A stretch of DNA of 29,640 nucleotides from a virus: the IMG/VR virus record IMGVR_UViG_3300042507_001758, positions 1 through 29,640 of that record. One strand, 5' to 3'. The position numbers and the translations under genes are program-made. The first letter of the stretch is position 1. The number at the start of each line of letters is the position of its first letter. The notes beneath the pieces are model-generated. The model saw only the letters and a program-made list of their open reading frames with translations, was not told the origin of the DNA and searched no databases. Below are positions 15,431 to 27,456 of this stretch, in pieces.

Positions 15431-15847
15431 TCAAATCTTTACGAATGAATCAACTGGTATGTAGACGCACCGTTCCATATCTTTATCGTCGGCTCTGTCG
15501 GTGCGCCCCCCTATGTATTCCTCATACGTATCCTTAGCTACAGTCATGAATACCCCATCTGTGAACTTGATGAGTATGATGAACGGGACGTTCTCGGTAT
15601 GCGCCCAGTTTTTACCTCGTTCCCATTTGGCAGACCCCATCAGTACGGTGGGGTACTTTGTGCTCCTATTGTTCCGAGTCTTTATCTCAACCACCGCTAT
15701 GGTTTTGTCTTTTTGCGTTAACTTACCGTTAACGGGATGTCTTGGGGGGTATTGCTCATATTTGCATTCAAAAACTTCACAAAAATAAGCAGCGGTTTCT
15801 AGTTCCCTAGCCACATCAGCGGCCTTTTCATATGCGGGTCTGTTCAT
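15431..15847 (-). CDS. Putative PD-(D/E)XK-fold endonuclease
   Basis: A 138-residue protein with Glu16 in an N-terminal helix, a following Cys/Glu-rich strand (FCEVFECKYEQYP), and the core AVVEIKTRNN with Glu54-X-Lys56, the E-X-K half of a PD-(D/E)XK nuclease site. YPTVLMGSAKWERG follows, then strands FIILIKFTDGVFMTVAK. The length and strand order fit a minimal restriction-endonuclease-like fold. It could resolve or degrade DNA intermediates with the SNF2 helicase three bases downstream. The ATG at 15847 overlaps the stop of the HNH gene by four bases (ATGA), so the two are probably translated together. The nuclease role is inferred from motif and context. Confidence 0.72.
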   Translation of the reverse strand: MNRPAYEKAADVARELETAAYFCEVFECKYEQYPPRHPVNGKLTQKDKTIAVVEIKTRNNRSTKYPTVLMGSAKWERGKNWAHTENVPFIILIKFTDGVFMTVAKDTYEEYIGGRTDRADDKDMERCVYIPVDSFVKI

Positions 15848-16119
15848 TTAGTTGGCTTATTCTTTTTAACCGTGTGGTCTGAGTTGCGGCTGAAGCTACG
15901 ATTAGCACTTGGGCTTTTCAGCTTGAGGTTGCTGGGTGCATTAGTGCCACCCTTGGATAGCGGGATGGTGTGGTCGATGTCCTTACCAGTGCGGTCAATA
16001 CCTTTCGCATCCATCTCACGCCGCGCCTTCTGACGCACATCACGGTTGGGGGCTTCTCCCCGTTCCTTCTGTTGTTGGTATTCTTTCTTGTACGGTCTTG
16101 GCTTAGTAACGTATGGCAT
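15844..16119 (-). CDS. HNH endonuclease
   Basis: A 91-residue protein with a basic N-terminus and a compact HNH core: DIDHTIPLSKGG (Asp49-His50), then NAPSNLKL (Asn64) and SPSANRSFSRN (Asn73). This matches the H-N-N form of small phage and restriction-type HNH nucleases; zinc Cys pairs are absent. Metal-dependent cutting of DNA is the known family activity. It lies between the RecB-like and PD-(D/E)XK nuclease genes, transcribed in line with them, and shares an ATGA overlap with the latter. It is more likely part of the replication/recombination set than a free-standing homing gene, since it fits the operon without disrupting it, but a homing-type origin cannot be excluded. Confidence 0.88.
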   Translation of the reverse strand: MPYVTKPRPYKKEYQQQKERGEAPNRDVRQKARREMDAKGIDRTGKDIDHTIPLSKGGTNAPSNLKLKSPSANRSFSRNSDHTVKKNKPTK

Positions 16120-18858: not shown

Positions 18859-19147
18859 GTATGTTCTCCAATATGGTTTCTAATTCTTTTATGTTCGTTT
18901 CGTCCACGACCAAAGCGATACCCCCCGCTGCGGATATGGCAGCGAGTTCTCGTTTTTGTAACTCGGTTGGTTTGTTCCCGTTGGCTTTACATTCAATGCC
19001 AATGAAAACCCCCAGCAAACAGGCAGTGATGTCGGGGATGCCTGACCTGCCGTAGCCGTGTGTGGATGAGAAGAAGTAGTACGCGCCATATGCTTTAAGC
19101 AAGGCTACTACTTTGTGCTTGACCTTTGCTTCGGGTGTGAGTGCCAT
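18821..19147 (-). CDS. VRR-NUC family nuclease
   Basis: A 108-residue stand-alone VRR-NUC domain, a PD-(D/E)XK-fold nuclease of the type found in phages and fused to eukaryotic FAN1. It begins MALTPEAKVKHKVVALLKAYGA, then HGYGRSGIPDI places the metal ligand Asp39, IECKANG gives Glu52-X-Lys54, and a conserved Gln follows in TELQKREL (Gln64). Phage members cut branched structures such as Holliday junctions, and often accompany SNF2 helicases as here. No ribosome binding site precedes the ATG. A promoter (TTGCCA, 17 bases, TATAGT) ends seven bases upstream, so the mRNA may be leaderless. It is the first gene of the polymerase/nuclease unit. Confidence 0.92.
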   Translation of the reverse strand: MALTPEAKVKHKVVALLKAYGAYYFFSSTHGYGRSGIPDITACLLGVFIGIECKANGNKPTELQKRELAAISAAGGIALVVDETNIKELETILENIRAGKITTGHSFS

Positions 19148-19155
19148 ATATTGAC

Positions 19156-19184
19156 ACTATATAACATTACCCGCAAGGTGGCAA
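19156..19184 (-). promoter_or_regulatory. Sigma70-like promoter giving a possibly leaderless VRR-NUC mRNA
   Basis: On the minus strand TTGCCA (19179-19184), 17 bases, TATAGT (19156-19161), five of six matches at each box. The transcript start is expected at about 19149, two bases before the ATG at 19147. No Shine-Dalgarno sequence exists for that ATG. Confidence 0.65.
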
Positions 19185-19199
19185 GCGAAACTGAGGGGG

Positions 19200-19363
19200 A
19201 GTTCGGGGGTAGTGCAGATTCCACGCCCCCGGTCGTGGCTTAAGGAGGAACAAACAGGGTAGCATTTCAACACTCCGTACCTGTTTGCCCCCACCAAACA
19301 TGATCGCATCTGCAAGGTTACTATGTTTGGTGTCTGATGAACCAGTCTAATATCTACGGAGTG
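19200..19363. ncRNA. Candidate structured RNA with pseudoknot (unassigned class)
   Basis: The 215-base gap between the RHH-like gene and the VRR-NUC gene holds three perfect inverted repeats. Helix 1 pairs 19251-19258 (CAAACAGG) with 19280-19287. Helix 2 pairs 19293-19301 (ACCAAACAT) with 19323-19331. Helix 3 pairs 19271-19279 (CACTCCGTA), inside the loop of helix 1, with 19355-19363, making an H-type pseudoknot in which helix 1 and helix 3 strands are directly adjacent. At 19204-19231 a CGGGGG/CCCCCG hairpin competes with CCACG/CGTGG (19221-19225, 19234-19238). All pairs are Watson-Crick, so the strand cannot be told from pairing; on the minus strand the element starts right after the RHH-like stop. 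No match to hammerhead, HDV-like, pistol or tRNA cores was found by eye. Multiple DNA operator sites are the alternative. Confidence 0.5.
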
Positions 19364-19567
19364 CTATTCAATTTTACTCCCTATTTCTGGTAGCTGTAAT
19401 GCTTCCCGCAGTAGCGTGCTAATTCCTTTGCGCCACTCTTCTCCATACGTCGCTATGATATGGGAATGTAAATCTTTATCCAGCCGCATGGACACGTACA
19501 CTTTTCGCGGCCTTTTTCCCGGCCCTCTTACTTTTCTTACGGCTCCTTGGGGGAGTTGCTCTAACAT
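19364..19567 (-). CDS. Small ribbon-helix-helix-like protein
   Basis: A 67-residue basic protein. After a Lys/Arg/Pro-rich lead (residues 11-22), RKVYVSMRLDKDLHSHIIA gives a strand and helix, and EEWRKGISTLLREALQL a second helix, as in ribbon-helix-helix proteins of the BrnA/Arc type. It would bind DNA as a dimer and may regulate nearby genes. The ATG has AGGAG seven bases upstream, and the first 92 bases lie inside the preceding gene in another frame; both have good start signals, so the overlap appears real. Directly after its stop comes the inverted-repeat region, which might be its operator. RHH is a shape-based call, moderately sure. Confidence 0.68.
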   Translation of the reverse strand: MLEQLPQGAVRKVRGPGKRPRKVYVSMRLDKDLHSHIIATYGEEWRKGISTLLREALQLPEIGSKIE

Positions 19568-19841
19568 TTAGTGCTCCTATTCCGTTAGGTTTTACATATT
19601 TTTTAGCGTATACAACATCGTCTTTTTTGCGTTTGCCGCTTGCCATTGTAAAGGCCAACACATTGTCGTCGCATAGGGTATGTTCTCTGCATGCTACTTT
19701 GTCAAGCGTACCCGCTATGTGCGCCATGTCCGACATTAGGTAGAACACAGCCTCACGTGTAGGCAACGGTTCCCATATAGGGGGAGGGTAGCTCCCCACA
19801 AAAGCATTTAGTTTTTTACCCTCATCGGTACTGTCTGTCAT
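19476..19841 (-). CDS. Unknown phage protein with basic C-terminus
   Basis: A 121-residue protein of no recognised family. The first 80 residues look folded (VGSYPPPIWEPLPTREAVFY, MAHIAGTLDKVACREHTLCDD). The C-terminal 30 are Arg/Lys/Ala-rich (PRSRKKSKRAGKKAAKSVR), a probable nucleic-acid-binding tail; part of that tail arises from the overlap with the RHH-like gene. The ATG at 19841 overlaps the stop of the HicA-like gene as ATGA, so translation is probably coupled. Placed between a HicA-like and an RHH-like gene, it could be a partner of either, but it is not a recognisable HicB. Confidence 0.65.
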   Translation of the reverse strand: MTDSTDEGKKLNAFVGSYPPPIWEPLPTREAVFYLMSDMAHIAGTLDKVACREHTLCDDNVLAFTMASGKRKKDDVVYAKKYVKPNGIGALNVRATPPRSRKKSKRAGKKAAKSVRVHAAG

Positions 19842-25158: not shown

Positions 25159-26367
25159 TTAAACCACATGAACTGTCTTGCCAGTAGCTGCAACTGTGCT
25201 GGCGCTACCACCCACGATGCACCACAGCACAGGACTCGGCCAGTTGGCACCCCAGTCACCACCCACATACCCATCTGTCAGCATGATTGTGCATTCGGGA
25301 ACCAACTGCTTACCGCCCAACCAGTCCGTAACGCAGCAGGGTGCCGTGCCTCCCCCACCTTTAGGTTTAGTGGAGTTAACCAAGTCGCCCAAGTTACTTG
25401 CGTCGTACTCCTCATGCTGGGCTACTGCTGTATCCCAATACAACAGGTCTACCTTTGACGGTCTAACATCGTCGGCTATGGACTTAACCTCGCTGAGGAA
25501 CTTAGCTATGTCCTCTGCCCCAATAGACCCCGATGTATCCACACCAATAACTAGATGCCCTACGGTTTCACCTATTAGGCTAGGCATGTAAGTATCCATG
25601 CCATCCCCACCACCTGCGAGGAACCTGCGGTTGGGTCTACGCCAACTACTCACATCTGGCGCACGGCACGTTGCCTTGACGAACTCCCGCAACTCTTCAC
25701 GCCAATCTACTTGCGGAGCAAGCAAGCCCTGCAGCTCAATGCTAAGACCACCAGCACCAACCCCTGCTTTCTTAGCAGCCATCAAGCCCTGACGTATGGC
25801 GCTCTGTATCTCGCGCTCTATCTCCTTCTTCTCCTCATCGCTACGTCCTTGGGCTTCCTCCCATCCATGCTCATCGAACCCATCCCCACCCTTACCCTTG
25901 CTCTCGCCTTCTTGCTTGAGGATGTCGAACACTTGCTTGCTGTTCATCCCACGGAACCTTACGTCGAGGGCACCCATGACGCCGCCATCTTTCTTGCGTG
26001 GTATGGCTATGTGTTCTTCGCGGGGGTCAAGGTCAAACAACTCCACGTTAATCACGTAGTCACATGCCAAGTTAGCCAGCCTCGGGTTCTCCTTGTATAG
26101 CTTCAGCCATATAGTTAGGTGCATGTACAGGTCGTGCATAGCCTCATGCAGTACAACAAACGCCAACTCTTTGTCCTTCAACCCCTTAATGAACTGCCGT
26201 CCGAACTTGCGGTTGCGCCCATCTGTGTACGCTGTAGGGAAGTCTTCATCCACATACGTGCGCCCTGACATGAGGATGCCGCTGTAGAACGCAAACTTCT
26301 TCTGCCTCATCAACGCTATGATGGCGCGGCTCAACCGTCTCTCTTCTTTATGCGAAGTGTCCGCCAT
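25159..26367 (-). CDS. Metallopeptidase-VWA protein (DUF2201 type, CobT-like)
   Basis: A 402-residue two-part protein. The N-terminal DUF2201-type putative metallopeptidase has HEAMH (74-78) in VVLHEAMHDLYMHL. A charged linker (150-200) leads to a VWA domain with the MIDAS motif DTSGS (277-281), Thr341 in GGGGTAP, and LTDG (363-366). It partners the MoxR-like ATPase encoded just upstream; in such pairs the ATPase and VWA protein together remodel or insert metal into a target. Phage copies are often labelled cobT, but no other cobalamin genes are here. The ATG has AAGGAG nine bases upstream. Domain calls are firm; the target is unknown. Confidence 0.88.
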   Translation of the reverse strand: MADTSHKEERRLSRAIIALMRQKKFAFYSGILMSGRTYVDEDFPTAYTDGRNRKFGRQFIKGLKDKELAFVVLHEAMHDLYMHLTIWLKLYKENPRLANLACDYVINVELFDLDPREEHIAIPRKKDGGVMGALDVRFRGMNSKQVFDILKQEGESKGKGGDGFDEHGWEEAQGRSDEEKKEIEREIQSAIRQGLMAAKKAGVGAGGLSIELQGLLAPQVDWREELREFVKATCRAPDVSSWRRPNRRFLAGGGDGMDTYMPSLIGETVGHLVIGVDTSGSIGAEDIAKFLSEVKSIADDVRPSKVDLLYWDTAVAQHEEYDASNLGDLVNSTKPKGGGGTAPCCVTDWLGGKQLVPECTIMLTDGYVGGDWGANWPSPVLWCIVGGSASTVAATGKTVHVV

Positions 26368-26397
26368 ACCCTTAAACTCCTTTTCCCTATTTATGTA

Positions 26398-27456
26398 TCA
26401 AAGAAGGTCTTGATTCTTGGCAACCCATTCGCTGAACTTGCGGTTCTGGAATGCCATACTCTGCTTGGAACTCTTGGCTAGGTTGATACAGAATACTGCT
26501 TGCCATTCAGCAGGGAACCGTTCGATGTACTCCATAAACGGAGTCATGGTGTCCTTGTCTACCCATGAGATGCCACCGAACATGATGATGCTCTGTGCTG
26601 CTGGACTCACCGGTACAGGTGCGGTCTTGGGGTTAGCCAGCACGTAGTCCTTGGATGGAAGCTGGTCGCTGAACTCCAGATAGGCATGGAACGCCCTAGC
26701 GAATGACTCCCCACATGTGCCAGACAGCGCAGCTACGACAGACTCGGCATCGAGGTTGCTCCTTGCTTTGACGATATCGCTTGCTTTGTACAGTGAGCGG
26801 GGGCTGACGAACGCATCTTGCTGCTTCTTTGGATGGTAGATGTACGGGTTCTCGCTTGCCGACGGCTCTGTGTAGCTTGCGAATATCTCTTGGAACTCTC
26901 TAGCAAACGCAAGCATCGTAGGCTCTACCTCGTTGTCGATGCCCCACCCTATCCACTCCTCTGCGCTGGGCTTCCTCACGGTCAAGGTAGTAACCCTGTT
27001 CTTACTGTGGGCCTTCATCGTATCGCCCACTCCATCCGAACTCAGGTTGCCCGTCATGAACACAATAGTGTCGGGGTGCAGCATAGTGTCGCCAAGCCGC
27101 CCCTCGTTCAGCATGGGGTGCAGCATGTTCTTAACCGGGTCGGCCCCTTTACTGTACTCATCTAGCAGAATGCATACTGGTTTGCCTGTGTGTATCCCGA
27201 ACCGTGCGTTGGGGTAATACGTTGTCGTCTTGGTATCACGGTCGATGACAGGCATTGATACGTCGCCAAGGTCAAGGTTAGGTACGTCGACGTACACCAT
27301 CTCATGCCGTGGCAGGAGCTTCTTTAGTGTTGCCAGCAGCATAGTCTTGCCGATGCCCGGTTCCCCGCGCAGATAGAACCGCACCGTGGGCGTCGATGCT
27401 ATGAGGTTGGCTGCTTGCTTGAGAGACACCGAAGTGCCGAAGTTAATTTGTGCCAT
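26398..27456 (-). CDS. MoxR/CobS-like AAA ATPase
   Basis: A 352-residue AAA+ ATPase of the MoxR/CobS type. It shows Walker A GEPGIGKT (31-38), Walker B ILLDEY (96-101), sensor 1 FMTGN (133-137) and an Arg-rich SKNRVTTLTVRKPSAEEWIG that would hold the arginine finger. It would form a ring that remodels a partner bound by the VWA protein 30 bases downstream. It is the first gene after a strong promoter (27516-27544), with AAAAGGA upstream of the ATG. The cobS label common for phage homologues should be avoided, because no cobalamin pathway is present. Confidence 0.9.
   Translation of the reverse strand: MAQINFGTSVSLKQAANLIASTPTVRFYLRGEPGIGKTMLLATLKKLLPRHEMVYVDVPNLDLGDVSMPVIDRDTKTTTYYPNARFGIHTGKPVCILLDEYSKGADPVKNMLHPMLNEGRLGDTMLHPDTIVFMTGNLSSDGVGDTMKAHSKNRVTTLTVRKPSAEEWIGWGIDNEVEPTMLAFAREFQEIFASYTEPSASENPYIYHPKKQQDAFVSPRSLYKASDIVKARSNLDAESVVAALSGTCGESFARAFHAYLEFSDQLPSKDYVLANPKTAPVPVSPAAQSIIMFGGISWVDKDTMTPFMEYIERFPAEWQAVFCINLAKSSKQSMAFQNRKFSEWVAKNQDLL

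Follow-up and report, generated by a model that had tools for sequence, protein, structure and literature searches.

What separates the RHH-like gene from the VRR-NUC-like gene in the virus record IMGVR_UViG_3300042507_001758, and what might it do? We analyzed positions 1 to 29,640 of this record (29,640 nucleotides, hereafter the window). Our analyses indicate that the gap encodes a folded RNA of ~160 bases.

The gap holds interleaved inverted repeats

A first-pass annotation of the window had reported three perfect inverted repeats in otherwise empty sequence, with RHH-like, VRR-NUC, and HicA-like genes as neighbors. The repeats are present where it placed them, no credible ORF was found in the gap, and the neighbors (RHH/BrnA-like, VRR-NUC-like, and HicA-like genes) are as described. 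Repeats S1 (9 bp) and S2 (8 bp) are perfect. The third, helix 2 (H2), was correctly positioned but is 10 bp long, one pair more than the 9 given. S1 and S2 interleave exactly as had been noted, forming a pseudoknot in which the 5' arm of S2 (S2a) abuts the 3' arm of S1 (S1b) with no spacer.

We shuffled the 219-base gap 5000 times, preserving dinucleotides. Perfect repeats of at least 8 bases numbered three or more in 0.06% of the shuffles, and an adjoining pseudoknot whose two arms each reached 8 bases or more formed in 0.02%. Across the whole 29.6-kb window, ~0.1 adjoining pseudoknots of such size are expected. Minimum free energy (MFE) folding of either strand gave a stability not above that of shuffles (z of -0.5 and 0.07). 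Because MFE folding is blind to pseudoknots, energy alone would have missed the element.

Two further hairpins (19204-19231 and 19221-19238) had been read as mutually exclusive. They are real but interleave, being helix b and helix a, respectively, of another pseudoknot (pseudoknot 2), and relatives keep both. As each varies with compensation there, the two helices most likely coexist. The minus strand, the family status of the element, and a 7-bp kissing contact between the H2 loop and pseudoknot 2 had all escaped the first reading. The segment of pseudoknot 2 that kisses the H2 loop is AAUCURCA. In the predicted fold, H2 sits in the first loop of one H-type pseudoknot (S1/S2); a second H-type pseudoknot (a/b) follows, and the kiss clasps both (Table 1). 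The first bases of the C/U-rich linker J3 may add a few weak pairs to S2.

Table 1 Parts of the RNA, and the promoter-like sequence beyond it, in window coordinates.
Feature	Position	Strand	Basis or remark
Whole RNA, S1a to b'	19204..19363	-	Homologs and covariation; begins right after the stop codon of the RHH-like ORF (19366-19364)
S1 5' arm CACTCCGTA	19355..19363	-	9 perfect pairs with 19271-19279; covariation
S1 3' arm TACGGAGTG	19271..19279	-	Perfect pairing with 5' arm
H2 5' arm	19323..19332	-	10 perfect pairs with 19292-19301
H2 3' arm	19292..19301	-	Perfect pairing with 5' arm
H2 apical loop motif K1 CCTTGCAGATGCGA	19304..19317	-	Core G-Y-AGAT-G, conserved also in the K1-free scan
Kissing segment TGCAGAT in H2 loop	19308..19314	-	Pairs with 19213-19219
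S2 5' arm CAAACAGG	19280..19287	-	No spacer to S1b; chimera test
S2 3' arm CCTGTTTG	19251..19258	-	Perfect pairing with 5' arm
Loop L3 of pseudoknot 1	19259..19270	-	Sequence
C/U-rich linker J3 TTCCTCCTTAAG, anti-Shine-Dalgarno-like	19239..19250	-	Sequence and enrichment across groups
Pseudoknot 2 helix a, 5' arm CCACG	19234..19238	-	Covariation
Pseudoknot 2 helix a, 3' arm CGTGG	19221..19225	-	Covariation
Pseudoknot 2 helix b, 5' arm CGGGGG	19226..19231	-	Covariation
Pseudoknot 2 helix b, 3' arm CCCCCG	19204..19209	-	Covariation
K2 motif AATCTGCA, partner of the H2 loop in the kiss	19213..19220	-	Pairing and covariation
Promoter-like TTGCCA-17-TATAGT between RNA and VRR-NUC	19156..19184	-	8 nt separate the end of the -10 from the ATG at 19147

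The RNA has relatives in phages and a few bacteria

Homologs of VRR-NUC led to six further contigs (L009, L013-L016, and L023) with the same anatomy and different helix sequences; one of them, L014, has a cut-down copy. A first scan of IMG/VR, with the H2 loop motif K1 plus the K2 motif, retrieved at least 120 stretches. A second scan used the pseudoknot 2 motif only, leaving out K1, and retrieved 105. After near-duplicates were removed, at least 72 distinct groups remained, mostly of uncultured phages; the RNA also occurs in a few Limnohabitans-type bacteria. The invariance of K1 in the first set arises partly because the search pattern contained it; the second scan, in which the loop core is again conserved, corrects for this. 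No real match was found by blastn against named phages and plasmids, and none by tblastn of VRR-NUC against named phages. For a 17-mer spanning the S2a/S1b junction, both of the other matches were chance occurrences inside coding sequence.

A scan of bacterial genomes gave 24 pattern matches, of which six fold and the others look like chance. These six copies (L210, L216, L222, L214, L217, and L220) are from Limnohabitans, Rhodoferax, or related Burkholderiales. Each is flanked by genes for a MerR regulator and a VIT/VWA-type protein, with the domains confirmed for L210. Relatives of the MerR protein occur in 27 of 401 sampled genomes from the family to which the L210 genome belongs, with a VIT/VWA match nearby in all 27. 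The Limnohabitans genome is the only one of these 27 with the RNA, and the MerR and VIT/VWA genes nearly abut in most others. An additional, lone Limnohabitans copy (L352/L354) precedes a 62-aa ORF and has no adjacent upstream ORF. We found no more copies on sampling ~400 genomes across the order and the phylum, using a filter that loses weak matches. The family is so scarce on bacterial chromosomes that it does not allow a conserved host partner to be traced.

The element also comes and goes. In L003, which is ~80% identical to the window, ~158 nt holding S1, H2, and S2 are absent, and pseudoknot 2 is retained with a mutated K2. This absence and the cut-down copy in L014 indicate that the element is gained and lost as a unit. 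Operons that otherwise resemble each other likewise differ in whether they carry the RNA, the bacterial MerR-VIT/VWA operons among them.

Covariation supports the fold and the strand

A helix parser with flexible boundaries resolved S1, H2, S2, a, and b in the groups, some S1 and S2 ends being approximate. Because MAFFT failed to align the S1 and S2 arms, these were tested against chimeras, which combine helix arms from two groups, instead of by column counts. The S1a sequence is different in each of the 72 groups, yet S1 has a native pairing score of 9.95 versus 6.32 for chimeras. For S2a, there are 69 different sequences in 72 groups, the native score is 11.69 versus 7.10, and natives exceed the chimera 95th percentile in 64/72. 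The S2a/S1b spacer is -1 to 2 in 61 of the 72 groups. H2 pairs at 8.69 in natives versus 5.20 in chimeras, and both sides changed in all 10 of its alignment pairs. Both-side changes were found in 5/5 pairs of helix a and in 5/6 of helix b, which is 93.7% paired.

H2, the kiss, a, and b were scored together on fixed columns in 42 sequences. The covariation score was 0.425 versus 0.156 when shuffled (0/500), and the signal was lost once the partner column was offset by one, two, or three positions. Compensatory changes beyond both shuffled and slid controls are what a conserved structured noncoding RNA should have. The kiss covaries as well. At position 19-131 in the K1-free set, all 58 of 58 pairs are standard with no mismatch (A-T 26, T-A 21, G-C 8, G-U 2, and C-G 1). 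Position 21-129 in the first set has T-A 81 times and C-G 38 times with no mismatch among the matches listed. One kissing pair is broken in a few loci carrying TTGTATATG.

Across the helices, G-U occupies 103 cells and A-C 44 (~2:1), and in S1 plus S2 the ratio is 33 to 5. G-U exceeds A-C in S1, S2, H2, and a. This excess points to the minus (gene) strand as the RNA strand. The one line of evidence that suggests transcription is this same G-U over A-C bias.

Compensatory change among relatives was the test that the first-pass annotation had proposed for its reading of the repeats as folded RNA. Every helix shows such changes, and the reading is borne out. The comparative evidence shows that the gap encodes, on the minus strand, a member of an RNA family outside Rfam with the fold described here, and we consider it almost certain that this family is real.

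The RNA follows stop codons in phage operons

Both genes flanking the gap are on the minus strand, as is the RNA, which reads from 19363 to 19204. Among 121 loci, VRR-NUC lies downstream of the RNA in 104, DNA polymerase A is nearby in 94, and a DUF3310 gene occurs in 92 (upstream in nearly all), each on the strand of the RNA. In 59/66 groups, S1a has a stop codon no more than 15 nt upstream, compared with 13% at random positions, and S1a overlaps the ribosome footprint at this codon.

The gene that follows is less constant. VRR-NUC is the first gene 3' of the RNA in 39/67 groups; the others are DNA polymerase, small unknown ORFs, DUF2201/VWA peptidase and, in bacteria, VIT/VWA. VRR-NUC started by a Shine-Dalgarno (SD) sequence follows the RNA in 27 groups, and many copies lie 15-40 nt ahead of an SD-started gene. 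A promoter and a leaderless-like start separate the RNA from the next gene in 44 of the 121 loci, a layout comparable to that of the window. There, the sigma70-like promoter of VRR-NUC and the lack of an obvious SD suggest a leaderless mRNA. In L095 and L172, which form one group, the RNA ends the operon and the next gene is convergent. This convergent ORF, endolysin-like by eye, ends beside the 3' part of the RNA. A C-run and a U-run follow some copies (L009, L128, and L149). Together, the varied or convergent next gene, the own promoters, and the pattern of presence and absence indicate a self-contained module and not simply a VRR-NUC leader.

Other features of these regions were also recorded. 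The RHH-like ORF (19364-19567, minus strand) overlaps the preceding 121-aa ORF (19476-19841, minus strand) by ~92 bases in a different frame, and L003 keeps a similar overlap (1516-1878 and 1751-1933). Positions 25159-27456 encode a DUF2201 metallopeptidase/VWA protein adjoining an AAA ATPase. A DUF2201/VWA gene comes directly after the RNA copy in L290, and in bacteria a VIT/VWA gene comes after the RNA. In the replication arm, a PDDEXK_14 endonuclease lies next to an HNH-like ORF (15431-16119).

Comparison with known RNAs

The proposed covariance search against Rfam was run. At the gathering threshold, none of the 4227 families of Rfam 15 matched the window, 18 phage loci, or 6 bacterial loci. 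The window element had no match even at E<=10, where two homologs gave only far sub-threshold chance matches. No description of the RNA was found in the text of the open-access papers searched.

The manA and wcaG RNAs are conserved folded RNAs that comparative genomics found in intergenic regions of phages, cyanophages, and some bacteria (PMC2864571). The window RNA resembles them in its setting and in how it was found. However, manA and wcaG are 5' leaders of metabolic genes, whereas the window RNA follows stop codons in replication operons and has no covariance match to them. GOLLD, ROOL, and OLE (PMC12286853) share with it an elaborate fold with kissing loops and the lack of a clear function, but the window RNA is far smaller (about 150-160 nt) and has no Rfam match. 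Like the intergenic IRES of dicistroviruses, a triple-pseudoknot RNA (PMC12221177), it lies between two cistrons; unlike in those eukaryotic viruses, the next gene here may have its own promoter or be convergent.

ToxI, the antitoxin RNA of type III toxin-antitoxin systems, likewise forms an H-type pseudoknot and belongs to phages or plasmids. It consists of short tandem repeats beside toxN, whereas the window RNA is a single copy, with no tandem repeats in the gap and no ToxN-type gene among the neighbors scanned. In IncI-type plasmids, a pseudoknot couples repY and repZ together with a short leader peptide and an antisense RNA, and its formation is tied to the ribosome at the upstream stop codon. 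The window RNA likewise has a pseudoknot at an upstream stop codon, but it follows ordinary genes and has a larger fold.

The classes first suggested for the element (riboswitch, ribozyme, or antitoxin RNA) are weakened by the missing Rfam match, the lack of a ToxN-like partner among the scanned neighbors, and a next gene that varies and is not always part of the same transcript. The family and its fold appear to be new and are missing from Rfam, and the mechanism could still be of a known type.

What the RNA may do

We tentatively favor a co-transcribed, trans-acting noncoding RNA, to which we give a little under an even chance. The RNA, which adjoins the stop codon of the gene before it, would be made as part of that gene's transcript and would fold into a compact, self-contained domain working independently of the next gene. 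It would most likely be released, or persist, as a putative trans-acting noncoding RNA. Its candidate contact surfaces are the conserved loop nucleotides and the C/U-rich, anti-SD-like J3, which may contact a protein or the SD sequences of mRNAs.

J3 is nearly free of G and contains CTCC, TCCT, or CCTC in 46/72 groups, compared with 13.5 after letter shuffling. It is equally anti-SD-like whether the next gene has an SD or none. No RNA segment was found to covary with the downstream leader, a test that is weak for J3 because the SDs are alike. These results argue against a simple leader that masks the SD, and they fit an RNA that acts in trans or at the end of the upstream mRNA. Sequestration of the SD is not supported: no covariation with the leader was found (a test blind where SDs are alike), and J3 is as anti-SD-like without a local SD as with one. 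Against the trans-acting reading, most copies precede a co-directional gene, as a cis-regulator would, and the L352/L354 chromosomal copy looks like a 5' leader of its 62-aa ORF. J3 could also be a structural linker.

A riboswitch-like or other cis leader, in which the RNA would control the downstream cistron by sensing a ligand, a protein, or the terminating ribosome, is a rather unlikely alternative that fits several of these observations: the many copies shortly ahead of SD-started genes, the overlap of S1a with the ribosome footprint, and the chromosomal copy before a small ORF. Against it stand the loci with an own promoter and a leaderless-like start and the convergent gene in L095/L172, where the RNA does not lie in the 5' leader of a gene that it would control. 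Downstream functions are not coherent, no segment covaries with the downstream leader (weak for J3), and J3 is not more anti-SD-like at SD-type loci.

We regard as unlikely that the fold acts in cis at an mRNA end or processing site, blocking 3'-5' decay of the upstream cistron or separating upstream and downstream mRNA stability. This would explain why the RNA adjoins upstream stop codons, its 3'-UTR position at the L095/L172 convergent junction, and the C- and U-runs after some copies. However, the sequence-specific conservation of the loop exceeds the need of a generic roadblock, and one copy has no adjacent upstream ORF.

A new class of self-cleaving ribozyme is improbable. Two-pseudoknot folds are typical of several nucleolytic ribozymes (PMC10085705), and the RNA shares this fold, its intergenic place in phages, and conserved unpaired nucleotides. 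However, it matches no Rfam ribozyme even at E<=10, and no cleavage site is evident in the sequences. A CTGATGA on the plus (wrong) strand recalls the hammerhead, but the remaining core is absent and there is no Rfam match.

It is very improbable that the element acts as DNA (a cruciform, origin, or operator). It does lie beside replication genes (DNA polymerase A and VRR-NUC) in most phages, but the excess of G-U over A-C mismatches in S1, S2, H2, and a, and the shared strand with the adjacent upstream gene, speak for RNA. The chromosomal copies in a MerR-VIT/VWA operon unrelated to replication weaken the origin reading further. Chance inverted repeats, compatible with the ~0.1 pseudoknots expected in 29.6 kb and the unexceptional MFE, are refuted by the homologs and all covariation results.

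Returning to the trans-acting RNA, we propose more speculatively, as a possibility somewhat short of probable, a new class of autonomous phage RNA. Such a kiss-clasped double pseudoknot would be freed from early operon transcripts, would act in trans either on translation, in the host or the phage, or on a host protein, and would pass as a self-contained unit between phages and Limnohabitans-type bacteria. It is rare for a new RNA fold this complex to be well supported, and the present family is common in uncultured phages. Its two pseudoknots and kissing clasp would make it a good target for three-dimensional structure. The copies in Limnohabitans sp. Jir72 and JirII-31, together with the unit-wise presence and absence of the element, would make its function directly testable if the strains are obtainable.
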